Positions 10,170 to 50,203 of a stretch of DNA of 50,203 bases are shown here, piece by piece. Position numbers and translations under genes: made by a program. The stretch is from Halocafeteria seosinensis (lineage: Eukaryota; Sar; Bigyra; Bicosoecida): contig LVLI01000612.1 in assembly GCA_001687465.1 (NCBI GenBank), forward strand, positions 1-50,203, read 5' to 3'. The notes beneath the pieces are model-generated. The model had not been told where the DNA came from. It saw only the letters and a list, made by a program, of their open reading frames with translations, and made no database searches. How positions within the stretch are numbered: position 1 is the first letter of the stretch; every line of letters begins with the position of its first letter.

Positions 10170-10405
10170 TGTACCCTATCGATTCGCATGCACTCCACTT
10201 GTATATCCTTTCTACCTGTTCCTTTCATGCATATAGCAGCATTCATTACCAAGGTGAATGAACTCAATAAATCAAGGCAATCTTGAACAATGAGACAATC
10301 TTTTCGTTCAGTTGAGTTTTTCAGTAAACCTGTTCCATTATGCCTTGATATCCTTGGTGTTGTGCCCTCCTAGTCGATAGAGAATACACTATAGACATTA
10401 TTAAA

Positions 10406-11916: not shown

Positions 11917-12688
11917 AGCTGCGTTAGGTACATTTCGAAATATGTGCCAGTGTACGAACTGGTCTTTGAGAAGCATTGGATCTATGGTCTTTTCTAGTAG
12001 ATTTTTGCCAATGCCCAGTATACTTCCATCGTAGTTGCTGTCAGTAGTGGGTAGCAGAGTATTGGCAACGTGAGTGGAGAGTGCCGGTATATGAAACCGA
12101 AAACACAATAAACAGGGCTGTATATTTTCAGAATTTATGCGTCCCTTGCTCTTTATATCCTTGAAATATTAACACCGTGTTGTTTACTGCTTCGCAAATA
12201 GCAGCTTCAAATGTCGGTTGAAGCAGGTCGGATACGTCCCGCAGCACGTGGAAGGGGGCTCAACCGCAAGATCCGACAATGCCGCATAGCCCGTCTGACG
12301 GAACACTACGTGTTTTTGCTAGCAAAACTTTGGCCTGAAAACAAGTGCATGTTCCTCGCGTTGATCAGCACCGCGGTAACTCCAAGTTCGGATTTCGAAG
12401 TGCGATCCTTCTACTCCGACGCGCGACCTGTCCCGTACAAGGACAAGAGCATCTCAGAACCTGTCTGACAGGCTATCAGGAGGTGTTTCATGAGAAGGAT
12501 TATCTACATAAACTACGAACACACTTCTTTGAAAGGAAGGAATTATTGGAAGATATTGACCTGTCTGGGCGGTGTGGGCTGCCTTTCGCTGTACCGGTAG
12601 CGGTCAGCGAGTTTGGGAAGAAATCGCCGAGCGACGGCGCCGAGTTATTCAGTGACCAATCACGTTAACACTGAGGTTTTCTTCGAGG
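11917..12688. other. Intergenic or 5' UTR region before the giant membrane-protein gene
   Basis: It holds the RBM39 3' end, with an AATAAA at 12107-12112, and the upstream region of the next gene. Overlapping frames such as 12211-12468 (85 codons, Arg-rich N-terminus) have no recognisable content and no splice logic linking them to the next gene. I do not call them. Confidence 0.4.
12107..12112 (+). terminator. Polyadenylation signal after RBM39
   Basis: AATAAA about 190 nt after the RBM39 stop, same strand. Assignment by position. Confidence 0.5.
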
Positions 12689-15600
12689 ATGATACCGTTC
12701 ATGAACGACGAGAAAAATTTAAAGAAGGGCATGTTGACCATATTGCTGCTCTCCGTGCTGGTCCTGGCTCCACTAGTGCAGCGGCGCTCCGTCGAGACAG
12801 GTGGGATGCGTGCCGATGTTCGCGTTGAGAAGGCTGCTGATTGGACTAAACGCCCGATTTATCATCCGAGGCGAAGGCAGGTAAGGACAAGAGTATATCT
12901 TAGAAAAATGAACGATATCGTTCACTGCTACATCCATTTTAGCTTCTTTTGCTTCGTGTTCTGACTCAGCCGAGTTCGTCGGACACGTCGAGAACAACTC
13001 AGACCAGCTCGGAACGAGAGATGGGGCTAGCTCACAGTCTTGACTCCTTGGCAATGCTCAATGGAAATCGAGAAGTGCATCATATTCAGGACATGAGTAG
13101 ACGATTGAGTCCCGCGTCGAGGGATTCGAATTTGACCGACTGTGGACGGGAATATTGTGCAACTGCTGAGTACCATCCCTTTGTAGAATTTGACGAAGCC
13201 ATTCCAGGATCCACTTCCGGAGAGATAAATCTTACAGTACAAAGCGCCAATGGAGAAGAACCAAGCTTCTATTTTACTTGTAATACTGGCAATTTTGAAG
13301 CAACCAAAGGATTGTACTTCGCTTGTGATCCGCGATACGATGGCACGGGCTTAGCCGTTGGCCCTCCTGTGGTGCCATCGTCCCGAGTGGCCAACATCAC
13401 CACCTGTGGCAGCGCCTCCAACGACTGTCGCGAATACCACTACCGAGTATCCGTCGCATTGAAAAAGGACATTGAAGATCTTATCTCTAGACACTATGCG
13501 ATTCATGAAGAAAACGACGAACTCTCAGAGTGGGAAATGGAGAGCATACTCGTTCCTACGTCTATGAACGTAGCATTGGACGGCGAAGCTATTGCGCAGG
13601 TGAACCAAAATATTACCATAAATGCCAGCAATGTTGTTCCAAAAAGTTCAGTTACGAACGCTGAACATGCTTCTTCAGTCGCACCAAATCCTTTGGAACT
13701 GTATTTTACGCGGCGCGAAGGAACTCACGGAAAGATATGGAAACCCATAGTACTCACTGTCGCTTCAAACACTCATGTTCGGTGGGCCACCCGGGAGGAC
13801 ATCTCTGGCTTCGTCCATGTACCATTTGAGGAAATGTACCAGGAAGCAGGCGTTGCCGTGGTTGAGACGAATGTGTCTGTTGAAACCGACAAGGCTCCTG
13901 AGAGACGGACTCATTCGATGTTGTTCGTTTCGTTTTTCGACCAAGTGGGAGCGCACTTAAAAGACGTGCTTGTCGAGTTCGTGTTGACGGTAAAACAGGC
14001 AAATGTCGATGTCGAGGCACATTCCTTGAATGTCTATCAAAGCCTCTCAGAAAATACTCTCTCTAGATCATTTATGCTTTACAATTTCGGAACCGCCAAC
14101 ATGAGTTGGAATATGACTGTTTTTTGGAGTGACGGTTCTAGGACTAACATTACTAACCAGTTTCTATGGATTCCAAAGGACTCAGGAAGCGTCAGACCTT
14201 CCAATAAAGAGAATGTGTGGTTACAGTTCTCAAAAGAAACTGCCACATCCGAGTCTTCGTCAGCTTGGTTGCTCGTAGAAACGGATGCTTGGAGCAGTTT
14301 AAGATTGCCCGTCGACAGCAGCTTCCAACGGGAATTTTCTCTCTGGAATAGCACGGAACTGTCGTCGGTCCATTTTTGGGTATATATTCGATATACGAGG
14401 TCATCAGTCTTCTTGTGCAGAGACTATCCACAAACTATCACTCTGGAGCCTGGACAACGAAGTGCATATAACTTGAGCGTTGTGAATATGGGAGATGAAG
14501 ACATGCAGCTGAAAATAAGTAGAGTCATGTTACAGCCTACCGATGTCGCAGTCACGACTGTCCAAGGAGTCGAATCTTCCACAGGCAATCGTTTAAACTC
14601 TCCCACTGAACTCGCACTAAACTCGAGTCAAGACAATGGTCTACGACTTGCAAATTGGATGGTGATTACGCCGCAAAGTTTTCCTCTACGACGAAGGGAG
14701 ATCAGACACATGAAAATTCTCCTAAAATACCCGGATGTGAGTCTTACAGTACCCACTTTGGAGAGCAATGACCCTGAACTGGTTAGGCCCGGTGCGTATA
14801 GAGTGGTCCTCAATTTCGAGGGGCAGTTTCCCTCTGACAGCAACACTGATAGCTTCGAAGAGCAAGTTACCTTCGCTCATGTACCCGGCAGAGTGTCTCC
14901 AAGCGATTCTACCGTCTCTATAACCGGTAGTGAAAATGTGCAGGCTGGTCAGGAGCGACAAGGAGAAGTCAAACTCCGAGATGTGTTCGGAAACTATCCA
15001 ACCCTGGCTCGGCTCCGCACTTCCGATTGTTCTCATTCTAACGAAAAACAACAAATTCCCACGTTGTGTATATTGATGAAGACAGACTCCAAACAGCAGT
15101 CCCAAACACCAGCAGAGCTCAGTTTAAACAACACAGGCGACCTTGTCTCCTCTCTAACCTTCCACATCGATTTCAAGGCTCAAGGATCCGCTACCCTTGT
15201 TGTGAAAATTGGCGGAAAAGATATCCAGCATTCTCCATTAGAGTTTAACATCGACGAAAAGAAGTGCGGCGGTGACGGCGAGGAGAATGATGAGCAGGAA
15301 TGCAAATGCAAACCGGGCTACAAACGAAGAGCTAGGGGAAAGTGCGAGCAATGTGATCCAGGAGAGTTCCAACCTGAGCCATCAAACACTGAGACATGCC
15401 TAGTTTGTCAGAGTGGATATTTCTCCAACACTGGGAGTACAAGATGTTCGTCCTGTCCTAAGCAGGGATTGACGTGCAATGGCGGAACAATAAAAATGGA
15501 GAACGGTTTCTGGTGCGAAGCATGCGTGGCCCATAAATATCCCCGAACACATATAATAGAGCAGATAGTCCGGAATGATACAGAGCCAGTCTTCCACAAG

Positions 15601-18600
15601 TGCAGTCCCGCAGCTGCGTGTAAAGTCAATTCCAGTAGCCTCGCCACTGACTGTGCAAACGGGTTTGAAGGACCGATATGCAGTCAGTGCTCTGATGGTT
15701 ACGCTAAAACAAATAGCGGTGTATGTGCTCCTTGCCGTAGTACTCTCGAAAACGCTGTGCTTGTCTCCGTTTCAGGACTAGCTATTTTGATTGTCATCAT
15801 TGGTATTGCCTACCGCGCACACGAAGACGCGACGGCGACTAAGGAGGATGAGGTGCTCGAAAGGGATTTCGTAGAGTCAGGTGATCGAGATGCATCGCCT
15901 CAGAATGAAGAACAAAATAGTTATACAAACAAAAGTGAGGAGTATTCAAGGAAAGAAAAATCGAATGGTGAACCACCTCAGGATGAAGACAGAGAGAGTC
16001 ATCGGAATACATGTATAACTGAAGAGTGTACAGGAAACGGGAACGGATCTGATACTCTTTGCACAACCGGTCGGGATGAATCAAGTCAGAAAGAAGACAA
16101 AGAAGGTCTTTCCAACGAAAACGAAGAACCTTCGGGAAGGGACGAAGAGTCTAGTATCCTCGCTGTCTGCGATCGGGATGAATTAGCGCCAAATAACGAC
16201 CAAGGAAGTCCAACCAAGGGGGAGCAGATTTCAGGTATTTTCGATGTCCAGGATAGGGAAGAATTACCACAGAATGAAGAGCAAGAATCTTCTGACAATG
16301 GTGAGGACGTTTCAGGGAAAGAAGAGGAATACCATCTTCCGTCCTTCCAGGACCAGGACAAGGTACAAAAACGTCAAGGCGAAGAACTTGCGAGAAAGGA
16401 CAAGGAATCCGACATTCTCCCAGCTCAGTCATCTTTATACAATATTAAGTCATTTCAGCATGCATTCTTGGTGTACATTGATTATCTGCAAATCGGGCGT
16501 ATTCTGAACTCTATGGAGATTTCACCGTTCCGAGGGATTGCGGCGTGGATGAATGGTGCCACTTCGACGTCTACAATGAACCCAGCTGAGGCCGGACCTT
16601 TTCGCTGCGTTACTGGTGTGGAACCATTTCACGTGGCTTTGTTAACTATGTCTCTCCCTCTTATTATTGTCATTCTTGTGTTTGCGGTAATCGGGGTAAT
16701 TGAAGCTGGCTCAAGATACAAAGATAGTTCTCCACGGCGCGAAGTGTGTTTCAGATGGCTGAGGACATCGACATGGGCTGTGATCCTACTGCTCAACTTA
16801 ATTTATATGACTGTGACGATGTCAACTCTGAGGAGTTTGGAAAAATATCCGCGGGACATATACGGCTCAGAAAGAGCTAGCCTGGACGTCAGTATTCACA
16901 CCGAAAGTCTTAAGTTTGCATTGCTTCAAACGGTTGCTTTCGTCGTCTTAGGCATCTTTGTGCTAGCATATCCTTGTTTGCAAGCAGTATATTTTTCGTG
17001 GAGCTTTTCAAGGATTCGTAATGCCACTGAAGCGCTAAAGTTCTGGAAATTAACAGGAGGGTATCAGCTGAAGTCCTATGGGTTTCTCTGGGAGGTTGTT
17101 GTCATGCTGAGGAAATTATCCATGGTTTTGGTGTCAAGGTTTTATACGGGGGAACGTGGTCAATTCACGTTGACTACATTACTGTTAATCATTTCGTACA
17201 TGCAAGCACTGACGCAGTCTCCATATATCGACAAACCTGTTAACCGTTTGCAGAATCTTCTTGTGCTAGTCTCTATCATCAACGCGGGCCTTGGATTAAT
17301 TAGAAACGAGGTGACTCGATATGCATCTTTGTCAGTTTCTATGACGGCAGCCTCTACTGAGAATGTTGACAAACTTGTCATCAGTGTGCAACTTCTCTTT
17401 ACTGCCGCCACGCTTATGGTTGTCTTTTACCTTTCACCGCGGGCCATGAAAGCGTTTAACAGAATGCTCTTACCATATCTCCGGAAATTTGCTGCTTGTA
17501 TCCTGACATTTCTTTCCCTCCTGGTATCCGGTTGTGATCTTCTATGTACTCCGAGCGAATGGGCAAATGCCTGCAAAAGTTGTCTAAAGAGCACACGTTA
17601 TTATTGCCATCCAAGAACGTGTAGCAACTCCTGCAAACGGTGCCTTAAGAGTACGGGGTACTATTGCCATCCAAGGACATGTAAAGCAATGATTATGAGC
17701 TGCAAATGTGAATGTAGGCTGCCTTCGCGCTCCGCATTAATGAATCTATGCTACGGGTGTAAAAGGTGTAGAAACTCCTGCAAAAGGTGCTTTGAGAGCA
17801 CGGGGTACTATTGCCATCCAAGGACGTGTAAAGCAATGATTATGAGCTGCAAATGTGAATGTAGGCTGCCTTCGCGATCCGCATTAATGAATCTATGCTA
17901 CAGGTGTAAACAGCGCTGCAAACCTCCCCCTCTCCGGCATATCCTTTCAAAGTGCTGGGTAGGCATATTGACTGTGGTTTGGTATTTATCCTACTGGTGC
18001 AATCCGAAAAGCTGCAGCAAGCCAACCATAACTTGTCCGAAATTAGCGTCAAATTGTAGTACTACGGGCTTATTACAGAAGTGTAATCCCAGGAATTGGA
18101 CCATGCCTCAAGTGTCATGTCACAAATGCTGTTCGGAACTCCGAAGGCTAAGTTGGAGTGTACTTTCCTCATGCAACCCAAGAAATCATACCTGTCCGAC
18201 CATTGCATGTGAGAAACCGAGACTCAGTTGCTCCATAAAAAATTGTCTTCGCCGATGCAACCCTAACAACTGCACTGTCGCATGTAACGCTTGCTTACGG
18301 GAGATGAAGGCGGATATCGCAACTACGACGTGTAACCCGAGGAATTGGAGAAAGCCAACGACACAGTGTCGATATACTTGTAAGAAACCCAGCGATATGT
18401 ATTGTATGCAGAGGTGTCGTTCGCGCGACTGTACAATGCGAAATTGTCTTAAGAGTTCGGATGACAACCAGGGCAAATCAAGCAAATGCACTTGCAAAAA
18501 TAGCCGGTGGTGCAGGTGCGACTCTACAGGATGCTGTAGGAGCTGCCGACAGTGGTGGCTGGGAGTATCAGTCTTGCCTTTGTTTTGCAAGCGACATTGT

Positions 18601-19026
18601 TGCCGAAGCCATTTACGGAAGAATTCTCGGAACGAAGAGGACGGTCCTGTCTCTGGAATGAACCCGTTGCAAACTGCTACAACAGGAAACCCATTAAGAA
18701 CCGCAAATGGTAAAGCTGGAAGTGATGCTAGGAGCTCCTCTTTTTCTGTTAGTTCACAGTACTATTTGAGTAAAGCAAACTTGGAAAAATTGAACCGGCC
18801 ACGGAATAGGGCAAAAGAAAGAAAGCAACTAATGCAACACAGTTCAGGGAACCGCGTTCCAATGATGAAGAAAAAGGTGGAATTTGGTCAAACCGTTAAA
18901 CAAAAGCCGATAAACACTTCAGATAACGAAGTGGTTGATACGCAGCAGCTTCCATCGGATGTCCAGCAGATGCTCCAGGAGAGGTGTACGGATAGTTCAG
19001 ATGCAGAATCGAATAGAGCATTCTAA
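12689..19026 (+). CDS. Giant multi-pass membrane protein with GCC2/GCC3 cysteine-rich region and cysteine-rich tail
   Basis: Two exons, 12689-12880 and 12970-19026, joined in phase 0, about 2082 aa. The first exon supplies a hydrophobic signal segment (MLTILLLSVLVLAPLVQ). The ectodomain (about 80-830) has many N-glycosylation sites and beta-rich Ig/filamin-like stretches. At about 830-995 comes a tandem Cys region of the GCC2/GCC3 (ephrin-receptor-like) type, with CKPGYKRR, CDPGEFQ, CQSGYFSNTGSTRCSSC and EGPICSQCSDGY. Helix 1 follows (about 995-1012), then a ~200-residue acidic loop of degenerate repeats (residues such as DRDE, NEEQ). About seven more helices lie at about 1284-1587. The tail (about 1585-1950) is extremely rich in Cys, with repeated C-[NH]-P-[RK] motifs. 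The architecture is known from many protist putative receptors or channels; its function is unknown. Confidence 0.8.
15840..16430 (+). repeat. Degenerate acidic repeats inside the giant membrane protein
   Basis: About six degenerate units of roughly 30 residues follow the first transmembrane helix. Each carries a D-R-D-E or G-R-D-E start, an N-E-E-Q/D-K-E block and an S-G-x-E-E end. The DNA copies have diverged. They probably form a disordered, negatively charged cytosolic or lumenal loop. Confidence 0.55.
17571..17924 (+). repeat. 147-bp in-frame tandem duplication in the cysteine-rich tail
   Basis: Two nearly identical 147-bp units (49 codons) start at about 17631 and 17778. A partial, more diverged unit precedes them from about 17571. 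Each unit encodes C-K-R-C, then STGYYCHPRTC, then MSCKCECRLPSRS. The period is a multiple of three, so the frame is kept. The few differences imply a recent tandem duplication. Confidence 0.85.
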
Positions 19027-19639
19027 CACGTCTACATGCCTTCTTGCTTTTAGGTTGGTAGGGTTCGACCTCAAGTCAATCAAGTGATTTCAGCAGGAAG
19101 ATCTCAAAGCCACTGACCAAGAATCGTTCTCTGGCCACTATGTAGGCTTTGGTCTATTTTTCCCTCGCTTGTTTCTTGGGTTTGGGGCTTAGCCAAGGCT
19201 TCGATTTGTATACAATTGTCTTGGTATTGCTTCTACCGGAAGAGTGTAGTCTACGTACAGTACTATGCTACCATGGTAGGCCCTGAGGAGTGACTCTCAC
19301 GTCTCCGTACGCATCACCAAAATAGTTCACCGGCGACACCCAGACCCGCTTGTGTGCGTCAACGTGACAGCCAAGTACAAAATTTGTAGTCAGTTGGCAG
19401 CAGCCAGCCGTCGTCGTGTGAACCACTCGGGTTCTAGGTTGCTGTACAGTACTACCGCTTCTCGTAGTGACATACACACACTTAAAACCGCTTAGAGATG
19501 GTGATAAGCAATTGCTAGGGGAGATCTTTGATCAAATTAGAAACAAGCGGAAAGGAGCCTGGCGCTTCTAAGAAACTTCTGTTCTGTCACCAAGAAAGAA
19601 AAGCACCCACCTCGCCGGAGCGTTTCATGTACACACGTA
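19027..19639. other. Intergenic region
   Basis: About 610 bp between the giant membrane-protein gene and the GLUG-repeat gene, both on the plus strand. I see no gene and no clear regulatory motif. Confidence 0.4.
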
Positions 19640-21302
19640 ATGCCTCACTTCAGAGCATGTAGAGCCAGAACCCTGTTGGAAAGGATTGCTCTAGTATTTT
19701 GCTTGACGATCTCGCACACCAGCGCATCGAAGGAAGAGGGCGAGGACCTCCGAGAATCGATACGGGCTGGACTGGAGCCTTGTTTCCGCCACAGCCAGAG
19801 CACCTTGGAGCGTGCCCCACGGTTTGAAATGAATTGCTCGCGCATGTATTGGAAAGCGTCTGGCTACAACGGAAGTACTTTCATTTCTCTGAAAGCTAAC
19901 GAGGAGTTTGACGGACACAATGGAGAGATCGACTTGGAAGGAATCAACGGTTTCCAAGGTCTCATCGCAGTGGAAAACGACAATGTCACCTCATTCAAGG
20001 ATGCTCCTCTCATTCACAGGGTGCATATTAGAAGTGGATCTACAAGTACATCTGGTGGCTTCATCGTTAGAGAGAAAGCCCAATTTGTGGAAGTTGATGC
20101 TTGCAGCAGTTCTGGCATAGTCAACGGGTCCACTCGACCGCCATCGCCGGCTATCAGTGGAGGCGGTATATGTGGGCGCTTATGCGGATTAAATGGAGAG
20201 ATATTAATTTCCAATTGCTCTTCGACAGGGGTGGTGCAAGGTGTCAAATCAGGAGGTATTACTGGTGACCGTTTGGGGGAGCAGGGTCACGCCACTGTTG
20301 TTGATTGTTTCGCTACGGGAAATTTGGAGGGTATCAATTCCGGCGGAATATGTGGTCAATATTGTGGCCGAAGAGGAGTACTTTCTATTCAACAGGCCGC
20401 ATGCGTGGTATCAGAAGTGGGGGCCTCGTTGGCATAATAAGTGCCCAGTCCGGGGGAGTAGTCGAGGTTTCGAGCTCCTTTTCTACGGGCACCATAGACG
20501 GTTATAGGAGCGGGGGAATAGTTGGTGTGGATGCCGGTTTCAATGGGGGAACTGTACGTATCTCAGATAGTTACTCTACGGGAGCAATAGCTGGCCAAAA
20601 AGCGGGAGGAATTTCCGGCGAGGGCGCGGGCAAAGATGGTGGCTCCGTCTACGTGAATAGGACCTATGCTTCAGGCAACATCATTGCCCAACATGGAGGT
20701 GGAATCATCGGCGGTATTTACAATGGAACTGACGCTGACTTTTCCGATCCACCACGGGACATAGTGATTCAATTTTCGGTGCACTCATTTCCGGGCCCTA
20801 TGGTAGGACACAGAAGGTCCGTAGAGCCGAATGTACTAGGCACAAAAGGGAATTCTGCCGACTTAGCAGATATTCGCGGCCAACTTTACCATCAAGATGG
20901 AAGGCAGAAATGGTCAGAGGACGAATGGGCGATAGTTCACCCCAATGAACTTCCTGTTCTGAAATTTCAGTTGCCGATTCCGTCGGTTACGCCGTCGCCA
21001 ACACAATCTTGCAGGCCTTTACGCACTAGTTCTCCGACCACAACCAGAATGCCAACGACACCTCCCTCAGCCACTCAATCGCCCAATTCAGGATTAGAAG
21101 CTAACAAATTTATCGCGGAAGTCACGGTGCAATCTGGGGATCGAAGTGTTTTCGACGCTGGCTGATTTCGAGACTGTTTCACCAACAAGGCGTTGCGGAA
21201 TTTTCGAAAGCTGACGATGACCAAACGGTCTATCACGTTGATGCGCTACAACGTGAAGATGTTAGAGCGTTTTCGAATAGGATTCACCCCCACATGGCCT
21301 AG
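19640..21302 (+). pseudogene. GLUG-repeat secreted or surface protein gene, frameshifted
   Basis: The frame from 19640 starts with a basic then hydrophobic signal peptide (core LLERIALVFCLTISHTSA). It continues into glycine-rich repeats of the GLUG type (SGGICG, C-S-S-T-G, VVQGVKSGGITG) found in secreted adhesin-like proteins. Near 20385-20400 that frame leaves the repeat pattern. The next frame resumes it exactly (STGRMRGIRSGGLVGI) and runs to 21165 through three more repeats and a Pro/Thr/Ser-rich stalk. After the stop at 21163-21165 a third frame stays open to about 21302 (ISRLFHQQGVAEFSK). No splice sites fit at the breaks, so small indels are more likely. Either the gene is decaying or the assembly has errors. 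No transmembrane segment is seen. Confidence 0.6.
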
Positions 21303-37807: not shown

Positions 37808-39339
37808 CTACGCTGCCGTGTATGAGGGATTTTTCACAGTTCTAGACGCTGTCTCCTGCTTTACAGCACTAGGTAGCTCAGTTGCCACTTCCTCCTGATC
37901 ATCACGTCGAGATCGTCGTTTCATGCCTACGACAACAATCGCCACAATTACCCCGATACCCGCTATACCGCCAACAGCGGCTCCAGCAATGGTGGCTGTG
38001 GAGGTACCGCCTCCTGAAGACGAACCTGAGGATCCACCACCAGGACCAGAGCTAGGCTCTGGATTCGGACCCGGTGCCGCGCCCACAAGAAGGTCCACAG
38101 ACTGTACAAAGGCACTGTCGGAGTCTTCATCTGTGCTCCGTCCACTCAGCACAATCGAAAAAGTGCGATTCTCACGATCATCCTCCACTCCTAGCAAAGT
38201 TCTACGTTCGCTCTCCGTTGGCAAGGCTGCCGCTCCTTTGACACTCACAAGGTCTACAGGAGCAGGCGAGCTGATCCAAACACTGCTTATGTTCGCTTGT
38301 GACAATTCATGTACCGCTGGTATATCCAAAATCCTTGTAAACGATGCAACATTTTTTCCGCGCTTATCCTCGCCATAGACGACGATGAAATCATCCTCCA
38401 TCCATGCCGCACTGATAACACTACTGAGCATTTCTGTGGCGAAGTCGAAGGGCCTGGAGCACTCAAGTGTGCCACCGTTTGATGCCTTCCCGCAAATTGT
38501 TGAGTTCTTTGCCAGACCATCCATTTCTAGGTTCACTGTATCAAAGATCAAAATAAGATTCTTATCAGGAGAGGAGGCAAAGATAGGCTCTTCGTAAGCA
38601 AGTTCCATTTGAATTTGCCCGTCTTCAGAAGTGATCCCCTGCGACCACACTTCCTCAGGCACAGATAAAATTGTGGTCGTTTCGCCTTCTGGACAGCTCC
38701 ATGAAACGACTAGGAAAGGATTCTGGTTAGAATCTTGGCCAAACAACTTCAGTCCAGAATGCAACGAGCATGCATCGGACCGACCCTCGACTGAGGTTGG
38801 TGCACGCTGAAGCGACTCAAAATTCTTTGACACTAACAACAAGCCTTCTTCACGGGAAGCAATTCCCGCAACATACGTGTCCTTGCTATCAGTCCCCCTT
38901 TCCAAGGTGACACCATCTACACTCTCACCGACGGTGTTGCTGTCGTCTTCGCAAGTCCCGCCCACACATTCTATTGTTTTCTGACGTTCTCCACACTGCA
39001 CCGACTGTTCGGCGGGGGTCAACAGCATGAGCTCATTGCTGGCGATCCCAAGCAGAATAAACGGCGCGGAATCGCCCTTTATCCCATTGGGGAAGTGGCT
39101 CAGCGTACCAAAGGAAGGATTCTGAATAGTGGGTGGGAGGTCACAGGTATCTGCCGGCTCAATTTTATTGGCAGTTACTTTTCCTTTTTCCGTGTTCCGA
39201 CCGGGGACGCTCGTAGGAGTAACTGTGGGCGTTGGAGTGCGGGAAGCGGAGGGCCTTACACTAGGAGTCGCCGTGGTCGGCTCCGCGCTTGGCGTGCCAC
39301 TGGGAGTAACATCAGGAGTCCCTGAGGGAGCCGGTAAGT
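37808..39339 (-). CDS. Terminal exon of the minus-strand modular gene: stalk, ectodomain and transmembrane helix
   Basis: This exon encodes about 510 residues. It starts with a Thr/Ser/Pro-rich stalk (GTPSAEPTTATPSVRPSAS), typical of an O-glycosylated extended linker. A ~330-residue ectodomain follows with paired Cys but no B-A-C motifs. It has beta-propeller-like phrases (FILLGIASNELMLL, then YVAGIASREEGLLLVS), but the repeats are too weak to call. A Gly/Ser linker (SSGSSSGGGTST) leads to one helix (ATIAGAAVGGIAGIGVIVAI) with a basic stop-transfer K-R-R-S-R-R. The cytosolic tail is about 30 residues, with no known signalling motif. The predicted topology is type I, with the units outside the cell. 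Confidence 0.75.
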
Positions 39340-42300
39340 CTGAAGCAGAAAAGAGCACTAACAGACACACTATCGGCATGAATCGAGATCCTGAATACTT
39401 ACCTCGGATAACAGAATCTCCCTGTGTTTGTGACGGAATAGCCGGTGGGGCGAGGCAGTCTTCATCTAACACTCCGATGCCTTCATTCCAGCCGTAATAA
39501 TGTGGATTTAACCAAAGGAAATCATTCTTTTCAATTCCATAGCCAGTATCGTAGCTGAAACTAACACAATACCAATTCTTCTTATCATTCTTATCATCGA
39601 CAGGATCTGGGTTAACCACGAAACTGCGTGGGAGACATATATGTTAGACTATGTAGCATTTGATTGGGACAGGGAAAAAAAAATTGAGGTAACCCCACTT
39701 ACTTGAGAGTAGCCATATCGCAATATGTGTTGTGCCGGTAGTTCCTGCAAAACTCGAAGTCCGAGTCCTTTTCGGAGGGAGGGTAATAAAAGTTGAAAGT
39801 GGCTCGAGTCCCATCTTGCAAGAAGAAAAACCGTTTCCTGAAGCGTCAACACATAGGGTAGAAAACCATGGTGGTAGACCCAATTAAAAAAGCATGTTTT
39901 ACGGGATTGGTAGAGACTAGATAGGTACTTACTGCACTTCCCCAGGGAGCCGTTGACACATTCCCTCTTGAAGAGTGACCAGGTCATCCACTGAGCTGCA
40001 CGATGCGGCCAAGATACCGCTTGTACCATCAGGGGAGATAGCGAATGCCCTTTCTTCTGCCAGTAGGCCGTATGAAGTGGTGTACTCAAAATGCACACAT
40101 AGATTGTTGTCGGAGATTGTAGACAAGTTCCTGCAAGGAAAAACAAAGACACAATCGCAACCTGTGTTCGGCCGCGCTCAGGGTAAGTTTCAGCACATAC
40201 TTTAGCACGGTATGGTTGCAGTGACCGTTCGAAAGGCAGAACTCAAACATGTCTTCGTCGAGGGAATCTCGTCCAGGATGGCCTGTTAGATGCAGTGAAC
40301 CGCAAGCACCATCTCCTTGATAAAACCTTCTCTCCTTTCTGCACGGTAGCAATTGTCAATACAGTAAATACATCTTGTCACTACACTACCACATTACTGC
40401 ACCATGTTTTTACTGCGCAACTTCTGGTAGAACAGGACATATCCCTTCTGCAACGTGGATGGTATGCAGAATATATGGATAATTTGCATGACAAATAGAA
40501 GTTGTTGACGACCAAGGACATATATTCCTGCAAGATAGCTCGCCTCGGTTGGAGGAGCACCAGAACAATCCGAACGACCGTGCTACAATACAGTAAGTGG
40601 TTAGAATAGTTTTGACTGTTTTCATTTGTTTATGGTCTTCCCGCAACCGGCAAGCAGAAAGTCTGAAGAGACCGGATCATGGTTTTGCGTAGAATTTTCG
40701 GTTCCCGATTCTATACCCGGAGAGCCCTCTACTCGTGGTCTATGGATGCGAGCCGACGGTTCACATGCCGCTTTTGCGTGCGTCGTTATGCTCTTCCTCC
40801 GAGTAACGAGGGGCTGTGCAGTGTCGCCGCCCACCTACGCCTCGACAGTACACGAAATTGTCGTATTCATTTACTTGGTTCTGGGTGTACAGAGGCCCTG
40901 TAAGGTTGACGGAGGCACATGTACCATTCTCTTTACTCCAAAATAGATGCTCCTTGCTGCGTTTAAGAAATTACTATATGTGCCTATATACCCAGTACAC
41001 GTGACCATACGGGATAACATACCGAAGTGGAGCAGGAAGAACATGACACATCCCATCGGCGTTTCCTGCACCCACGCAGGGTCGCCCTACCGGTATGGAG
41101 GTACTAATGACTCAGCGAAGGCGATGCCAAACATACCTAGGGGGGTTAGAGTGTCGCTGATACGGAAGTCAAGGAGTGACTTGCCATCACAATCAGAGGA
41201 CAGAACAGCTTTCGATGCATCGCTGTTTACCCATAGATGATTATTGTCATCCTGTACCAAATCACTTGAGTACTTTATGCAATACCAGTCGTCGGAAACC
41301 ATTCTGTTGCACGGAACGATGAATTAACTTTAGTAAAGTTCGAGTAGCGAACGACGTAAAGAAAATTCCAACTCACTGGATAGTTTCGACGGTTGCACTT
41401 AGGTCACAGGCACGTGCGGCCTCGCCATCATCTCTGAGCCCGCCGTACTGACAATACTCAAAGGGGCTGTAAAGGACCCTGGAAGCTGTCGAGCCCCAGC
41501 CGGGGGGTTGCCCGTAAAATTGAACGAACGGCAATTCCCGTCAAAATCGTTGAACTTTATATAAGTCCTGAAAAACTCCCGCAACATTCGCACAAAGTGG
41601 AGATCCGGCGCGTAAACCAAAGCATCCCGCTACTTACTGAGCAGCTGAGGGTAATCCCGGGCATCGATTAGCTGCGTACAGGTTGTACAAGAACGAAAGC
41701 GTCTATACTGCTAAACATGAGGCTTGGTTCCTATTTGCTTACCTTTTAGGTTCTCGAACTCGTGAGGCACATCGATGACTGCCTCACAACCCATACTATT
41801 GGTTGCGGCCTGCACATTTGACCCGTCATCCTTGAGCCAAAGGAACATGTCTTCCTCGTCTTGTCCCCATGTAAAGTGTGTACAATATAGAACGAAATCG
41901 CCACTAGTGTTCGTGATTTTGTGGATGTCCCTGTTCGTTTGTTTGTTTGTTTCCACATTCATCAAAGTATGCGCATCTTTCACTCTCCACTCTGACACTA
42001 ATATCACTTACTTAACGTCCGCGGGGAGACATTTACTTTGAGTTTCGTTTGTGTCGCGGCAGTACCGGAAACTAGCCGTGGGAAAGATCGCAACGGAGAA
42101 GTCAAATGAATGGCAGTTACCGCCTTGAGTGAAATGCTCTTCCTCCCTGTCTAATGAGGCAAACCAGAGATCATTCATATACTTGGCTACTCATGGAAAC
42201 GAATGTACTTACGTGACAGGTAGGGTTGGACACATTTCACCGGCTGTGAGACGGCAGGTCGAAACCAAATGATCGTTGACAGCACAATACATGTACGGCT

Positions 42301-45300
42301 TTGTCAGGACACCGAAATCACTGTGCCATTGCGGAATCGTCCATACAAAGGTTACGGAATAGTTGCGAAAGTCGATGTGCATTGTAGTCGTTTCGGGGAT
42401 ACACAGCAGACAATGTACTACCTAAATGATACAGAAAAGTACCTGCTCCACACAGAAGTAGCCACTGGTTTAGTTCGAACTTGGTGAGAACGGATGGACG
42501 CTGGGATATTGTTGGCACATTCCCTCTGTCACGGTATTCAAGGAGCAAGTGATTTGTTAAGAATTTTCGATGGATGTGGGTTAATCCGCAAGCGATTACT
42601 TACCTCGTAACACGTGTGTTCCATCAGCAGGAATGCTACTGCCGGGATCAGGATGGCTGCCATCACAATTTTTAACGACTTCTCCATAACCGACGTTCCA
42701 GTCGTAGAAATGAGGGTTGAACCAGATGTAACGATACGAATCTATTCCGTATTCATCAGTGTAGCTGAGTGTTACACAGTACCAATTCTGTTTGCCTTCG
42801 TCCGGGTTAATCACATGCCTGCAAAGGTTACCTCCTTCTATAAACACTGCATTCGTAACGGAGATCAATTTAATCAACACGTACAACAACTTCACGGTAG
42901 AGGCACACCAGTTATTGTGCCTCACATCCTCGCAGTAAGTAAGTGACTCCGGATTCTGCTCATTCGGAGGTTGGTCAAATCCGAACGATATGCAAGTCCC
43001 GGCTTGCCAAAACGATAATTTGTCTCTGAGTTTGCATAAATGTATGCGTGAAGCATGTATGTGATGCTACCGAATCATATACAGAGATGGACATACTGTA
43101 ATTCACCCGGAAGACGTTCAACCATTCCTTGTCCGAAGGAGTTCGAGGCACTGCCGCCGGTGAAGTCGCACTTGTCTACCAGAGTGGCAGAGTCACTGTT
43201 GACCCATACTCCGCGGTGCATACTCATTAGTCCATAGGTAGTGGTGTAATCGAAATCGATGCATACATCACTGTTTAATGCATCGCTTATGTTGCTGCAA
43301 AACCAAGTGCAAATGATTGAATGTGGAAAAAAAGGTGTATGGTCAAATCCGAAGTAGTCACCATTCCCTTACGTGACAGTTGCATGGAAACAGTGCCCAT
43401 TATGAGTGCAATATTCGAAGTCATCCGGGCTCCCCCCGAGTCGCCCCGGATGCTCACTGAAATCTACGGAAAGGTATTTACTGTCTCCTTGGCTCCAGCG
43501 GATTTCCTTCCTGCGAAAGAATTGCGCCTCAGATGTTCCGAATCACGCCATTGACACGCAAATTTCAATAACTGACGTACCGAGCGTCATCGGGAATGAC
43601 CCGGCATTCAGCCTCTGGGACAACAATCAATATTACGCAAAGATCAGCTTTATTACGGTCGTCTTCTGACACTGAACGGTATCCTTACCAGCTACATAGT
43701 TGGCGTAACTCTCTGGGGGATTATTTGGTGCAGAGCAGTCATTGCCGTGGAAAAACGCGGCCCGACCGTTATTATTGTTATCGCTATCACCCGCATGCAT
43801 CCAAAGACCTACTGTGTTTGTATCAGCGTTGTCAAAGTGGTAAATGTATTGGACGCAATACCAATCATTTCCCATGGAGCTCCTCATGGCATTGAACGCC
43901 CTGCACGGGCGTAGCGTCACACAGTCACTCACTTAGAGACTACAAGAAGTTAGGATGCGCACCGTGCACATACTCGATACTAGAAGAGTGTTCGGGAACG
44001 TTACCGACACCATTAGATTGTGCTACAGAGCGATGCACTTTGGAAGTGCACTGTCGGCGCCCACCAGTGCCTTGGCAGAATTTAAACAAATCGGCATCAT
44101 CTCTGTATTCGCTCATTGGTTCCTGGTTCCCTGTAATAGCTTCAGCGAAAGTTGAGATGAATGGATCGAACATAAATGATCGGCAGTCATCATTGCTACC
44201 GTCTGGTAACGATCCCCAAAAACGGAATGTCGAGCTGCGTGCAGGCCAGCAATATCAAGAACGATGGAACACACCCCAAGAGCAGAGTCACTTACCCTGT
44301 TAGTCCCTCCGGCAGTGCATGACATACTGCAGAAGATAACACACACCCATACATCGTAGCATTTGATGTGATTGCATGCAACATCGATGATCACAAATAC
44401 AACGTACACCCCTGTGATGTTTTAAGATCACTTTGGCGGAAACCTAGAACGGTTTCATCTTCACAATCCGATGAAAGCACAGCCTTAGAACCATCAGCGC
44501 TGAGCCAAAGGTGGTCTTTTTCCCCTATTGCATCGGTATTGATCTTCAGGCAATACCAGTTAGCATTAGGGGCGAAAATATGACTGCAGTATGCGTATAA
44601 TTGGGAAGTCATCCAGCACTCAAGGATAATGAATCCTTGGTTTGACGTACTCGATGTTAGCATAGGTATCACAAACACGGCTCGTCGGACCACCGTGCAT
44701 GTCTGCCCAATTTTCTGCGCCCTCCCCGCAATAACGAAAGGTGCTGTACATTTGCCTGCCGTTAGTATCCCCCCCAGTCGGGTCGGCAGTAAAATTGAAT
44801 GATTGACAATGCCCGTTGAAGTCCAAGAATTTCAGGTTGTTTCTGCAGACAACGAGGAAGAGGACATAGTCATCTGCGAAACGCACAGTGGCGCAAGCTT
44901 GTTCTCACAAACCCACATTAACGAATTCGGGAGACCTTCACATCTTCCGTCTGCACAGTGGGCACATGAATTCGCTGTCCAACCAAAGTGATAAGTTACT
45001 GCTATACAGATACATACCGGAGATCTCCTCGAAGCTTCCCGGTATATTATCGCAATTGTCGTCCAGTGTCGCGCCATCTTTCTTGACCCACATGTATTGG
45101 TTGTCACCGTGCCTATCTTGGAACTTAACACAGAAATTATCAACGTCATCGGAATCCACCTTTATTGTCATCTCTCTGTACCAACGTAAATTGACATATT
45201 CGACAACACAAGCGGTGCAAAACCAACTCTCGCGCGCAGTATACTCACGTTATGGCTGTTGCCGTGCATTCAGCCAGTAGAGTATCATTTCCGAAGCACC

Positions 45301-46905
45301 ATTGGAATCCAGCAGTGTTTTCGTGTACACCCATCTCTTCTAAGAAGCCAAACGAATTGCACTGTTTCCCGTCTCCGCCGGGTTGAAAATGCTGAATTTT
45401 GTCACTGAGGGACCAGCAAGGCAAGGACACGTGTTTCGCTCGTATGAGCCTCATATGAAAGCCATGCGAACACAACTTACAATTTAAGGCTGGGGCACGC
45501 CTTATCTGCGCATACGTATACAGGTGCATGTATATGTGTGAAGAGCTGGCCATAAGTGTCAGTGCGATGTGTTGTACTCACCCTTGATGTCGTAAGTATT
45601 CGTCGGTAGGTTGCCAGAACTACATAAATCTGAACTGCTCACTGCGGCCTTTGTCCCATCCTCTTGTAACCAGAGATATTGCTTGTTCTCGCCATCTACC
45701 AAATCAACGCAGGTCCAGTTCTTGTTATCGGCTTCAATGCGCGAACGGATCGACCTGAAGCAATTGTCCGATTATGCCCAGACGGGACTGTAAACATAAT
45801 CCGATAAATACGTACTGAACCACAGCACCACTTCTGGTATGACATGTCTTATCCCCAGCATCACAGTATGGGTCGACGGAGTCTCCTTCCTTCGGCTGTC
45901 CGCCAAAGTTGATGCGGAAACACTTGTCATCGTCATTAGATTCAATAAAACGGAAACGACTGCAACAGAAGGCGGCAAAGTGTAAGCACAGAGAACTGGA
46001 GCAGTCTGCTTCATCCATTGGTCATAGAGTATACATACCTCGTGAATTGGGACGGAATCTCTCCGCACATGTAGGCTGCAGGCGGATGAAGCTATCAAAA
46101 ATAGTGCATTTGTAGGCATTGCGACTTCGCCACGGAACAAACTTACGTGAAGTATCTGCCTGATACATGGACAACGGAGGATCCCCGTCACAATCGGATG
46201 CTTTCAGGGCCTTGGTCCCGTCGTTTCTCACCCACAGGTACTTGGATGACTGATCCTGGCTCCAAGTAAAGCCGATACAAAAGAAATCATCCTTATTGGT
46301 GCTCACAGAGCTGGGCGTATGGATACGTCACACGTCAACAAGAGCAACCTTGCAAATAAGGTAAGGTACGTACTTGATCCATGCAGCACCGCACTTCAAG
46401 GCAGAGTCCCCACTTCCCCCAATTTCTCCTTGGCAGAATTCGAAGTGATCATCTTCGCCAAGGTCGCTCTGGGTAAAATCGAATGAGTTACACTGATCTC
46501 CCGGGCGCTCGTTGTAAAATTCTCTTTGTATGAAGCGGCGCTTTTGTCTGCATGTATGCACGAAGTCCATGTGTATAGAGGGAACAACTCCCAAGCTAAA
46601 CCTAACGACCGTTCGTCGGTCCGGCTCCCTTGGAGGTCCCTGCGTTCGCTCCCCATCATGTTTTTGTTGCCCCTACAGGGGGGGAAGGGAGGGCAGGGAA
46701 AACACCAACACTGTCTAGACAGTGGGCAATTGGTAAAGGTACATGGCTATCGCAAACATATGATTTCCACTGGACGCTTCGTCCAATGCAACAGATGTTG
46801 GGAAAGGGACGCGAAAAAGTGTACTTACGAGAATGGAAGCGCTTGAGCGGCTTGGGAGCACAGAAGCGCTCCGAGGAGCAAGGAAATACCACCCAATGTT
46901 CGCAT
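37808..46905 (-). CDS. Modular type I surface protein built of three-exon B-A-C units, with lesions
   Basis: The signal exon (46905-46829, MRTLGGISLLLGALL) is followed by about 13 units. Exons B/A/C are: 46547-46374/46310-46147/46075-46039; 45959-45816/45754-45582/45505-45481; 45404-45249/45175-45018/44950-44917; 44842-44651/44583-44408/44326-44296; 44234-43974/43900-43689/43614-43581; 43510-43373/fused A-C 43294-43097; 43025-42885/42818-42604/42525-42492; a collapsed unit with C 42243-42213; 42146-42012/41930-41743/41671-41638; 41567-41377/41303-41137/41065-41023; 40956-~40800/inverted A/40447-40414; 40338-40201/fused A-C 40130-39933; 39837-39703/39623-39403. The last exon, 39339-37808, encodes stalk, ectodomain, helix and tail. 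Phases are B 2-2, A 2-1, C 1-2. Key residues are B: G-x-C-x-S-F and F-x-[YF]-C; A: W-[YF]-C-[VI] and S-D-C; C: C-x-x-[IL]-P. I do not recognise the domain. A 1-nt frameshift (41377-41567) and an inverted exon suggest decay or assembly error. Confidence 0.7.
39340..39402 (-). other. 63-nt frame-preserving intron encoding a hydrophobic segment
   Basis: This intron (GTAAGT at the 5' side, TTCTGCTTCAG at the 3' side) is exactly 63 nt and has no stop in the reading frame. If retained, it would insert 21 residues including MPIVCLLVLFSAS between the last unit and the stalk. It also contains an in-frame ATG followed at once by a signal-peptide-like core. Splicing is favoured because both sites are strong and the length is typical here. 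Retention or internal initiation would give an alternative product. Confidence 0.5.
40550..40805 (+). other. Inverted exon segment inside the minus-strand modular gene
   Basis: On the plus strand this stretch reads as the 3' end of a B exon (ending NPNDRATIQ at 40592), a GT-AG intron (40593-40657) and an A exon from 40658 (GSWFCVEFSVPDS, then RGLWMRADGSHAAF). The phase-2 junction is intact. On the minus strand, where the rest of the gene lies, unit 11 has its B exon start (40956 downwards) and its C exon (40447-40414) but no A exon between. The missing A exon is therefore present in the opposite orientation. Breakpoints lie near 40545-40570 and 40790-40815. Imperfect inverted similarity exists there (CCTCGG-TTGGAGGAGCACC against CCTCGTTACTCGGAGGAAG). 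Confidence 0.75.
41194..42272. repeat. Left arm of a large inverted duplication
   Basis: This segment is the reverse complement of 49128-50203, about 98% identical by eye: roughly 20 substitutions and two small indels. It covers the C exon of unit 8 through most of the A exon of unit 10 of the minus-strand gene, introns included. The boundary near 42272 lies in the intron just upstream of the unit 8 C exon. Homology continues to the end of the window on the other side, so the true arm may be longer. Confidence 0.95.
42244..42491 (-). other. Collapsed unit at the edge of the inverted duplication
   Basis: Between the unit 7 C exon (42525-42492) and the unit 8 C exon (42243-42213) only about 250 bp remain, too little for normal B and A exons plus introns. 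One frame reads HIDFRNYSVTF, which resembles the A-type CIDFDYTTTY. It runs without a stop through the usual A-C intron into the C exon (AGEMCPTLPV). Another frame has a B-like end (LFRNLCMDDSAMAQ) with a possible phase-2 donor. No combination restores the phase pattern. The unit was probably damaged when the duplicated block was inserted or converted. Confidence 0.5.
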
Positions 46906-47839
46906 TGTGCAAAGGTAGTGTTCTTTGGAAACTCGAATAAAAGCAATTAGACAGCTACCAATTGGTTCGTTGTTGTGTCCTGTTGTACAACTCAAGGCAC
47001 CTGAATGGAATGACGTAGTTCAGTCAAACCAGCTAGCTTAATCTTATCTAAGATTTCAGTTGCCACCCGTAGCCGGGATCAGGCCGGTGGGTCGCAACGA
47101 GAACTGCCACCCTGGTCGCAACTTCCCCATGCACTCCATGTGCGCATGTGCCCATAATGCACCTCAAGAAAGAGACAGAGGTGAATATATAAGTTTAAGG
47201 AGGCAGTATGCACTCAACATTGGCTATTGCATAGCTTTCTCGTTGGGGTGGAGACCGCCAAACACACGATCTGGGTTCGAGCTTCACAGAACACTCTGAC
47301 CTTTTTTGTTCCCAGCGCGTTCCCGCCAAAAACATGCCACTCCCCGCCGAGAGCCCTGGCGAACAACACTCACCAGACCAACACTCGCAGCTGCAACCCT
47401 CCTGCCGAGACAATTAGTTTCAGATGTCGATGTTTCTCCGATGCTATTGTATGCGTCTAAGCTGGCACCGCAAGCACTCACCCCCAAAAGCAGAAGCATT
47501 CTCGGTTTCTTCCTCGGAAGAAGCAGAACACAGAACCCAACGGAACTCCGGTATCCAGCACCAGTGCTGCACCACCCCAGACCCACCGTGGCACCGCCGG
47601 TCCGCCGCCATCCAGTGTTGGTGGTGTTCGCCCGGACACCGTGGTGGAAGAAGCTATTGGAAGAAGCTACATCGGGTTCGACAGCGTGCTTGGTTTCGGA
47701 ACACGTTCATACTGTATGTGTTTCGTTCGATCGTTTAAGCTTCTTGCGCAGGATTAGTTGTCACCGGGGTAATTTACATCCTCCTCCTCTCCTCCAGGGT
47801 GACAAATTCCATCCAGTGCTGAGACTGAGATACCCAACG
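46906..47839. promoter_or_regulatory. Divergent intergenic region between the two modular genes
   Basis: About 930 bp separate the two signal-peptide ATGs, which face away from each other. It must contain both promoters. A TATA-like stretch (GAATATATAAGTTTAAGG) lies near 47182. A plus-strand frame open from 47306 runs into the signal exon, but its upstream part is low-complexity and basic and has no counterpart in the paralogue. I treat it as non-coding or 5' UTR. Confidence 0.5.
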
Positions 47840-50203
47840 ATGAGGACCCTCGTGAGCACTATTGTGGTGGTTGTTACCACTTTGGTTGCGGCAGTGACAG
47901 CCACAGGTTTACATAATCAAGTTCCTTCGACGTAAGTCATCATGCATGCATGAAGGTATTCTAGAACGAGCACCTGGCCGCGTTTGGGGGGGTGGAAGTC
48001 AACATATGCACTGATGCAATTCGTAGCTATTTCCTGTTCATTGTAATTACGGCAACATTAAATTTTCGTTCTGCAGCGCACAAGAAAAAATTAAGTTTGA
48101 TAACAAACTGATGTACAACCACGACGACCGAATCGGAGAATGCGTCTCTTTTGACTTTAGCAACATTACGGCAAACAACGAGTTCACACTAGCTGTCAGA
48201 CCGGAAGATGGCGATCTCGCCATTGACAGGGAAACAATCATCAAGTACGTTGTTCGCAACTGCGACCTTGGTTCGTGTTTTTTGTGCGGCGGGTCACTCA
48301 AGAATATCCTTCGGCGCAGATCCGTTTACGAACCAGACGATGCAAGCGGCTGGTTTTGCGTGAACTTCGAAACCAATTTAAACAGTTTTGACTTTCAGTA
48401 CGTCTGGATCAAAGATGATCGCACTCATGCAGTGCTGGCCTCGGATTGCTCCGGTGAGGAGCCGCTGGCCATGTATCAGTCGGAAGCTGAGAGTAAGCGG
48501 GCCAGTGGACATCAAAGAGTTTCGTGTGCTAAAATACACGGGGGAGACTGTGGCTTGCAGATGCAATGTGTGGACAGATTCCGGAACCTTTTCGGTACGA
48601 GGCTTTATGAGGATGAAGTTGCATCTCAGGCTGGGTATATCAAATCGCTTCAACGTGGTCATGCAGACACCCCGGCTTTCGTTTCGGTGACCCGAATGAT
48701 GACTGTACATACGTCAATTTCGGTAACAATAATCCGGATGAGGGCGGTTCCTTGAGTGAGTTCTGCCGGCATTCGTGGGGACAACAAGTGTGCTACGAAG
48801 CCTCCCCTATCACGTGCGTATCTCATGGTTAAGAAGCGTACAAAGCATCTTAGTTCTCTCACGTATTCTTTGCTTAAACTTAGGCAGAAAGGTGAACTCT
48901 CTCCTTGGAGACGATGAAGCATGGACTTGTGTGGGTTTCCAACCTGAGCAAAGTGGTAGTAACTCGTTCGAGCTGTGGATGAACCCACCGGCGAGCAATA
49001 ATGCAAAGGCTTATCTCCGAGAAAATCCGGGGATGTCGACTTGTCAAGATAGTAACACGCCGAGCTCCAGCAAGGATGTTACTCGTATGTGAGATATTGA
49101 ATGCTTGGGAACACTCTTATCTTGTATCATCTGGTTTCGACCTGCCGTCTCACAGCCGGTGAAATGTGTCCAACCCTACCTGTCACGTAAGTACATTCGT
49201 TTCCACGAGTACCCAAGTATATGAATGATCTCTGGTTTGCCTCATTAGACAGGGAGGAAGAGCATTTCACTCAAGGCGGTGACTGCCATTCATTTGACTT
49301 CTCCGTTGCGATCTTTCCCACGGCTAGTTTCCGGTACTGCCTCGACACAAACGAAACTCAAAGTAAATGTCTCCCCGCGGACGTTAAGTAAGTGATATTA
49401 GTGTCAGAGTGGAGAGTGAAAGATGCGCATACTTTGATGAATGTGGAAACAAACAAACAAACGAACAGGGACATCCACAAAATCACGAACACTAGTGGCG
49501 ATTTCGTTCTATATTGTACACACTTTACATGGGGACAAGACGAGGCAGACACGTTCCTTTGGCTCAAGGATGACGGGTCAAATGTGCAGGCCGCAACCAA
49601 TAGTATGGGTTGTGAGGCAGTCATCGATGTGCCTCATGAGTTCGAGAACCTACAAGGTAAGCAAATAGGAACCAAACCTCATGCTTAGCAGCATAGACGC
49701 TTTCGTTCTTGTACAACCTGTACGCAGCTAATCGATGCCCGGGATTACCCTCAGCTGTTCAGTAAGTATCGGGATGCTTTAGTTTACGCGCCGGATCTCC
49801 ACTTGCGAATTTTGCTGGAGTTTTTCAGGACTTATATAAAGTTCAACGATTTTGACGGGAATTGCCGTTCGTTCAATTTTACGGGCAACCCGCCGGCTGG
49901 GGGGTCGACAGCTTCCAGGGTCCTTTACAGCCCCTTTGAGTATTGTCAGTACGGCGGGCTCAGAGATGATGGCGGTGCCGCACGTGCCTGTGACCTAAGT
50001 GCAACCGTCGAAACTATCCAGTGAGTTGGAATTTTCTTTACGTCGTTCGCTACTCGAACTTTACTAAAGTTAATTCATCGTTCCGTGCAACAGAATGGTT
50101 TCCGACGACTGGTATTGCATAAAGTACTCAAGTGATTTGGTACAGGATGACAATAATCATCTATGGGTAAACAGCGATGCATCGAAAGCTGTTCTGTCCT
50201 CTG
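47840..50203 (+). CDS. Paralogous modular surface protein, B-A-C units, runs out of the window
   Basis: The signal exon 47840-47931 (MRTLVSTIVVVVTTLVA) ends in phase 2, as in the paralogue. Exons then follow as B 48077-48244, A 48320-48492, C 48561-48594; B 48667-48813, A 48888-49084, C 49156-49186; B 49253-49387, A 49469-49656, C 49728-49761; B 49829-50020, A 50094 to beyond 50203. Every junction keeps the 2-2, 2-1, 1-2 phase pattern and no stop is met, so this copy appears intact as far as seen. Unit 1 matches unit 1 of the minus-strand gene: GWFCVNF with LASDCSGEEPLAMYQ, and C exon MCGQIPEPF against MCGEIPSQF. The first B exon lacks its second and third Cys together. The start was chosen for the signal peptide and the shared M-R-T-L. 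Confidence 0.8.
49128..50203. repeat. Right arm of a large inverted duplication (continues past the window)
   Basis: Reverse complement of 41194-42272. In the plus-strand gene it covers the unit 2 C exon through the start of the unit 4 A exon. Its B exon at 49829-50020 is 192 nt and in frame, whereas the left-arm copy is 191 nt. The homology starts in the intron at about 49128 and is still running at the last base. Confidence 0.95.

Follow-up and report, generated by a model that had tools for sequence, protein, structure and literature searches.

The 50,203-nucleotide window analysed here (contig LVLI01000612.1, listed as C389 in an assembly of 30.6 Mb and 605 contigs) carries, from position 37808 to its end, members of a gene family built from a repeated cassette of B, A and C exons. 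Each cassette would encode an extracellular domain of ~110–180 residues with relatives found only within this family, and seven such domains in a row would form the ectodomain of a small group of surface proteins. Gene a, a signal peptide followed by seven units and a short tail, would be secreted. Gene b, which starts 934 bases away and is transcribed in the opposite direction, would be anchored, its units standing on a stalk that leads to a single transmembrane helix and a short cytoplasmic tail. In a relative on contig C506, the array would stand ahead of the ectodomain of a multi-transmembrane protein family. The likely product is a multi-domain adhesion or recognition ectodomain, bound to the cell in b and soluble in a, where it may act as a partner or coat; duplication of whole genes and intronic recombination would have diversified the family. 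We give this reading a probability of about 0.6.

The initial annotation had described a single array of an unrecognised three-exon module. The region consists instead of the secreted gene a, the 5' half of the anchored gene b, and an inverted 3' half of b. Gene a is complete (46905–42470, minus strand) and runs from signal peptide to stop in 21 exons; its spliced frame of 931 amino acids holds seven units and no inner stop, and ends in a short tail with neither stalk nor transmembrane helix. On the plus strand, the 5' half of b starts at 47840 and is cut by the contig end; it comprises a signal peptide, units 1–3 and part of unit 4. The 3' half (42273–37808, minus strand) begins with the C exon of unit 2 and continues through units 3–7 to a stalk exon with one transmembrane helix. 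The proposed succession of signal peptide, units, stalk and helix therefore describes b, and not a. The minus strand carries 12 B exons (seven in a, five in the b part) where about 13 copies had been estimated, and the repetition itself stands. The three-exon design applies to most units, but not to unit 6 of a and of the minus-strand b part, where A and C form a single exon. By architecture, the module appears to be extracellular, as predicted.

Searching the assembly with gene a gave 63 matches at E up to 1. The window holds 25 of them, and the other 38 lie on C115 (21), C170 (7), C506 (6) and C140 (4). Five further arrays lie on these four contigs. C115 carries a second head-to-head pair in the same relative order (b', 63446–58036, minus strand; a', 64234–68891, plus strand), and C140, C506 and C170 each carry a b-type gene. 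The first 514 residues of gene a, compared with 5.8 billion public proteins, found two relatives, P0001 and P0002; a six-sequence profile retrieved only P0002 again and a two-unit profile no relative, in searches limited by candidate length and shared words. P0001 is collinear with spliced gene a from mid-B3 to the last exon (61% identity, 647 columns, 15 gap positions), across the junctions B3/A3 through A7/C7. By this alignment B, A and C are read as one chain in P0001, be its source RNA or an intron-poor genome. In units 4 (61 and 50% identity), 5 (53 and 36%) and 7 (75 and 58%), P0001 resembles window a more closely than a' of C115, unit 6 of a' being unmodelled and left out, so the duplicates look older than the split from the source of P0001. 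With a two-unit alignment, one peptide pattern gave 16 matches in prokaryote genomes and two patterns gave 31 in viral contigs, none of which was confirmed.

By hydropathy, a transmembrane segment is present in the stalks of window b, C140 and P0002, and P0001, like gene a, has no hydrophobic anchor. The b stalk (window 37811–39337, minus strand) also contains another conserved ectodomain, with 41% identity in C115 and C140 and no Pfam match. The cytoplasmic tail is short, with E-[LM]-P ... N-P (NPSY in the window), and a similar tail is found in C170 and P0002; a search for it in other loci gave nothing firm.

The B, A and C exons, with their motifs and phases, were recovered by splice models in the window and four other contigs and by a phase recount. 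The splice model combined codon bias from long single-exon genes of the window with splice-site weights seeded from visible exons. It found most exons in all five contigs, broke down in the minus b copy from B4 on and, on the plus strand, left several exons out or in the wrong place; exons beyond its reach were hand-placed from the printed sequence. Because the weights were seeded from the window, the other contigs are the more independent test. Across seven stretches, terminal exons (4 B, 3 A) omitted, phases were 2-2 in 35 of 40 internal B-type exons, 2-1 in 35 of 38 A-type exons, 2-2 in all five fused A-C exons and 1-2 in all 24 C exons. These counts lean towards the model, since A and B exons were recognised with profiles of the same units and C exons by translation pattern. 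The eight exceptions mostly resemble exons cut short or extended into a neighbouring intron. Module borders coincide with introns, the putative covalent unit being B-A-C, and this cassette is symmetrical with phase 2 at both ends, which makes it class 2-2 and not class 1-1. The whole b array is asymmetrical (2-1), as A7 is followed directly by the stalk, with no C exon in between.

Each unit has six conserved cysteines, C1–C3 in the B exon, C4 and C5 in the A exon, and C6 in the C exon. C2 and C3 are jointly absent from 5 of 47 units (four b1 units and b2 of C506) and are never lost singly. C1 and C6 are jointly absent from 6 of 44 units (a6 twice, b7 four times). The single discordance between them, in Wb4, is an artefact of a six-residue cut-off, the cysteine of that C exon lying at residue 7. 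If C6 is paired instead with the C1 that follows in the next unit, 9 of 32 neighbours are discordant (8 without Wb4). From covariation we infer bridges C1–C6, closing the domain, C2–C3 and C4–C5. The covariation of C1 with C6 and of C2 with C3 would make B-A-C one domain closed between its B and C exons, and suggests that B-A-C, in the register originally proposed, is the covalent unit.

We tested unit homology with profiles from which every unit index was left out in turn, the start of the stalk serving as third part of b7. All 44 three-part units scored 26.5–76.8 bits, compared with 12.1 for the best of 17,600 shuffles, and on these scores we consider chance excluded as the source of unit similarity. 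Homology between A and B exons was not detected (hhalign probability 0.6, P 0.09). Mean identity is 22% among units within a gene and 40% among equal-index units of different genes. Each of the 47 units is matched best, in other genes, by the unit of equal index; when a-type genes are compared with b-type genes, this holds for 43 of 47 (misses Wb3, Cb3, Eb2 and Fb3). Since unit k best matches unit k across genes, the array would be ancestral and seems older than the a/b split, with no sign of single-unit movement since. The annotated duplication and shuffling of the cassette is therefore not seen for single units since the genes diverged; intron breaks are seen on a larger scale (the second anchor and the inverted copy). 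C140 and C506 give a dN/dS of 0.33 (359 codons, 6 exon pairs), and pN against C115 is 0.35 for window a (7 exon pairs) and 0.31 for window b (8 exon pairs), pS being saturated in both; most exon comparisons thus indicate purifying selection.

Consistent with the initial annotation, which knew no domain with this pattern, sequence and profile searches of Pfam, PDB, PHROG and NCBIfam gave matches at noise level only. When 14 unit sequences were searched singly, three Pfam families each matched 1 of 14, at E 0.018–0.17 (best DUF5066, 0.018). P0001 and P0002 had nothing over the Pfam cut-off, P0002 having no match, and all eight further pieces lacked a family at E up to 1. PHROG returned one match at E 0.56 and NCBIfam none. 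A PDB sequence-profile search with two profiles (14 and 6 sequences) returned 0 matches at E up to 10. We take the weak Pfam and PHROG matches to be chance, as is Scytovirin (PF20888; P0001 residues 98–158, E 1.1, 10.3 bits compared with a cut-off of 27). At slightly under even odds, the unit could nevertheless belong, as a very distant member beyond the reach of sequence methods, to a known cysteine-rich or beta-sandwich extracellular superfamily, these genes then being ordinary fast-evolving surface proteins. All searches were sequence-based, drift at ~22% identity within a gene is fast enough to conceal an old origin, and alternating hydrophobic residues around the cysteines may suggest a beta-rich fold; the absence of any PDB profile or NCBIfam match and the chance level of the Pfam and PHROG matches argue against such a membership.

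A change of anchor appears to separate C140 from C506. Through most of the array, these two contigs share 86.7% identity (3825 columns). Similarity ends ~32 bases into the intron after A7 (C140 27281, C506 9298). Behind the array, C140 has a long stalk and a single helix, and C506 a large open frame of a different kind, related in a single comparison to a 2027-residue multi-transmembrane protein of the window (25% identity, 862 columns, E 2e-48). The printed junctions allow phase-1 splicing in both. No transmembrane segment was found in the C506 stretch examined, so the C506 anchor is unseen. The inverted repeat in the window likewise starts inside an intron, and both breaks would fit intron recombination between phase-compatible exons. 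The whole array appears to be joined to two different anchors (C140 and C506), and single modules were not found elsewhere within the limits of the searches.

Separately, the frame behind the C506 array (9298–13497; L050 5799–9998) has weak NCD3G-like and TNFR-like matches below cut-off. The 2027-residue protein is a single-exon product (window 12943–19026, plus strand) with a cysteine-rich stretch, about six hydrophobic segments and no Pfam match at E up to 1; it has relatives on at least 19 other contigs, with 42 further matches (23 of 130 candidates scored).

We read the minus-strand b part as a truncated inverted duplicate of b beside a real a/b pair. The inverted repeat copies align over 1081 columns at 97.7% identity, with 21 mismatches and 2 gap openings. 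It is possible, though we think it unlikely, that the minus b part and the plus b head are one intact gene scrambled by inversion or by misassembly at the contig end, with no truncated copy. The copies are identical over the last 227 bases, from 49977 to where the contig stops, and DNA searches of the assembly found no third copy, both in favour of such a scramble. Against it, the sequences upstream of the repeat differ between the two sides, the mismatches and gaps separate the copies, the minus copy has a broken B4 and no recognisable complete A5 behind its B5, and a on the minus strand with b on the plus strand is already the order of C115, without inversion. A switchable, invertible segment was set aside because the a/b order requires no inversion.

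Surface adhesion or recognition is our preferred reading of function, at about even odds by itself. It is drawn from the signal peptides, from proteins in both anchored and secreted form, from repetition of a cysteine-rich domain and from an array placed ahead of a multi-transmembrane relative. Any fold, a rod shape, a binding function and a partnership of a with b are likewise putative. It is improbable that the a and b products are structural coat, matrix or cell-wall proteins, with the cassette as a building block binding the neighbouring chain: the regular seven-domain length and the secreted and anchored forms would suit this, but the array of one relative sits on a protein related to a multi-transmembrane family, and the conserved stalk, helix and tail of b suit signalling or adhesion better than a wall component.

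Several points weigh against the adhesion or recognition ectodomain proposed here and against its covalent unit. Support for each covarying disulfide pair amounts to about two independent losses (a6 and b7; b1 and b2 of C506). The four b7 units scored as lacking C6 have no C exon at all, and the C1–C6 count of 6 in 44 leaves out b7 of C170 and P0002, which lack C1 and have an extra B cysteine and a stalk cysteine; these two may form a replacement bridge. Because C4 and C5 are both present in 45 of 45 units, their pairing follows by elimination only. The unit set covers 47 of ~59 expected units, the rest being insufficiently modelled. The splice model left b' of C115 in two fragments, a' of C115 in three and C506 in two, with the first units of C140 unmodelled; broken relatives were joined by unit order, and C140 by its DNA similarity to C506. 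The a–b partnership is drawn from gene order at two loci only. Finally, the inverted repeat copies differ by 5 non-synonymous and 1 synonymous changes in 106 codons of 2 exon pairs, too few for further inference.

Known systems resemble parts of this arrangement. The s48/45 domains of malaria-parasite surface proteins have six cysteines in three bridges of order 1-2, 3-6 and 4-5. The unit described here shares six cysteines and three putative bridges per repeated surface domain, and differs in that covariation, not mapping, points to 1-6 and 2-3, and in having no Pfam match to them. The TgrB1 and TgrC1 genes of Dictyostelium lie head to head and are divergently transcribed. The adjacent divergent pairs a/b in the window and a'/b' on C115 are alike in this respect. 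Tgr (Tiger) proteins are an adhesion and allorecognition surface family with repeated extracellular domains, in which TgrB1 and TgrC1 act as a pair (PMC3188802, PMC4448137). Tgr repeats are IPT/Ig-like E-set domains, for which there is no Pfam match here, and gene a differs in being secreted. Tgr is the nearest working analogue we can name, as a possible case of paired surface recognition with other domains. Of the papers that literature searches listed for similar systems in protists or unicellular hosts, none fitted on title and abstract.

A review of exon shuffling in animals holds that classes 1-1, 0-0 and 2-2 are equally suitable but that all domain types used were class 1-1; it also raises the question of why exon shuffling is confined to Metazoa (Patthy 2021, PMC8001218). 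Compared with the class 1-1 modules as presented there, the family described here is alike in its domain borders at introns, equal flanking phases, arrays on secreted or membrane proteins, and intronic recombination. It differs in that the cassette is class 2-2, each domain is itself divided between two or three exons, and the host is possibly not an animal. These genes would add an extracellular domain family without relatives found by sequence, with a unit spread over two or three exons and a putative bridge from first to last. They also provide phase-symmetrical, domain-sized cassettes of class 2-2, in contrast to the class 1-1 domain types of animals in that review (PMC8001218). Two intron breaks are visible in such genes, one of which puts the whole array before a different anchor. 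If the host is a protist, the question of why exon shuffling is animal-restricted becomes testable in this family. A more speculative and rather doubtful extension is exon shuffling invented in a protist: a new three-bridge domain of class 2-2, built into seven-domain ectodomains that divergent gene pairs produce in secreted and anchored form, and transferred between a single-pass stalk and a multi-transmembrane protein via introns, perhaps for self/non-self or mating recognition.

As no match to phycobilisome or light-harvesting families was found, the host is probably a heterotrophic eukaryote. Wnt gave no match, and the control gave none anywhere either, so this is uninformative on an animal host. 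The genome has 45 cadherin-domain matches (best E 3.3e-13, e.g. C250 41553–58907), which may help in placing the organism.

Features of the array genes in the window, with the basis of each placement
Feature	Position	Strand	Basis
Gene a exon 1, signal peptide, ends in phase 2	46829..46905	-	splice model; hydrophobic stretch
Gene a B1	46374..46547	-	splice model
Gene a A1	46147..46310	-	splice model
Gene a C1	46039..46075	-	splice model
Gene a B2	45816..45959	-	splice model
Gene a A2	45582..45754	-	splice model
Gene a C2	45481..45505	-	splice model
Gene a B3	45249..45404	-	splice model; P0001 covers second half
Gene a A3	45018..45175	-	splice model; P0001 collinear
Gene a C3	44917..44950	-	hand-placed (splice model: later donor); P0001 collinear
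Gene a B4	44651..44842	-	splice model; P0001 collinear
Gene a A4	44408..44583	-	splice model; P0001 collinear
Gene a C4	44296..44326	-	splice model; P0001 collinear
Gene a B5	43974..44234	-	splice model; P0001 collinear
Gene a A5	43689..43900	-	splice model; P0001 collinear
Gene a C5	43581..43614	-	splice model; P0001 collinear
Gene a B6, without cysteine C1	43373..43510	-	splice model; P0001 collinear
Gene a A6+C6 fused exon, without C6 cysteine	43097..43294	-	splice model; P0001 collinear
Gene a B7	42885..43025	-	splice model; P0001 collinear
Gene a A7	42604..42818	-	splice model; P0001 collinear
Gene a last exon: C7, short tail, stop TAA 42472-42470	42470..42525	-	hand-placed; P0001 C-terminus similar
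Gap between divergent starts of a and b, 934 bases (787 in C115 pair)	46906..47839	.	
Gene b exon 1, signal peptide, ends in phase 2	47840..47931	+	splice model; hydropathy
Gene b B1, without cysteines C2 and C3	48077..48244	+	splice model
Gene b A1	48320..48492	+	splice model
Gene b C1	48561..48594	+	hand-placed; missed by splice model
Gene b B2	48667..48813	+	hand-placed; splice model: earlier acceptor
Gene b A2	48888..49084	+	splice model
Gene b C2	49156..49186	+	splice model
Gene b B3	49253..49387	+	splice model
Gene b A3	49469..49656	+	hand-placed; splice model puts another exon here
Gene b C3	49728..49761	+	hand-placed; missed by splice model
Gene b B4, 192 nt	49829..50020	+	hand-placed; splice model: earlier acceptor
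Gene b A4, cut by contig end	50094..50203	+	splice model
Inverted repeat copy 1, from intron before b C2 to contig end	49126..50203	+	alignment
Inverted repeat copy 2, start of b 3' half	41194..42273	-	alignment
Minus b copy, unit 2 C exon	42213..42243	-	splice model
Minus b copy, B3	42012..42146	-	splice model
Minus b copy, A3	41743..41930	-	splice model
Minus b copy, C3	41638..41671	-	hand-placed; aligned to plus copy
Minus b copy, B4, 191 nt, frame broken (plus copy one base longer)	41377..41567	-	alignment
Minus b copy, A4	41137..41303	-	hand-placed
Minus b copy, C4	41023..41065	-	splice model
Minus b copy, B5, 3' end uncertain (splice model: exon end 40875)	40765..40956	-	hand-placed
Minus b copy, C5	40414..40447	-	hand-placed
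Minus b copy, B6	40201..40338	-	hand-placed
Minus b copy, A6+C6 fused exon	39933..40130	-	hand-placed
Minus b copy, B7, without cysteine C1	39703..39837	-	hand-placed
Minus b copy, A7, no C exon behind	39403..39623	-	hand-placed
b stalk exon: Ser/Thr/Pro linker, ~400-residue ectodomain, transmembrane helix ~37978-37922, short tail, stop	37808..39339	-	

Ordinary neighbours in the remainder of the window (1–37700) are a WD40 protein, a THO subunit 1-like protein, an RRM protein with an Arg/Ser-rich start, aconitase, and a BEACH protein in an open frame of 3460 residues. These large frames are free of introns over long stretches, unlike the array genes. At 19541–21165 on the plus strand, two overlapping open frames encode repeated Gly-rich GGIxG and a Thr/Pro-rich end, without a Pfam match.

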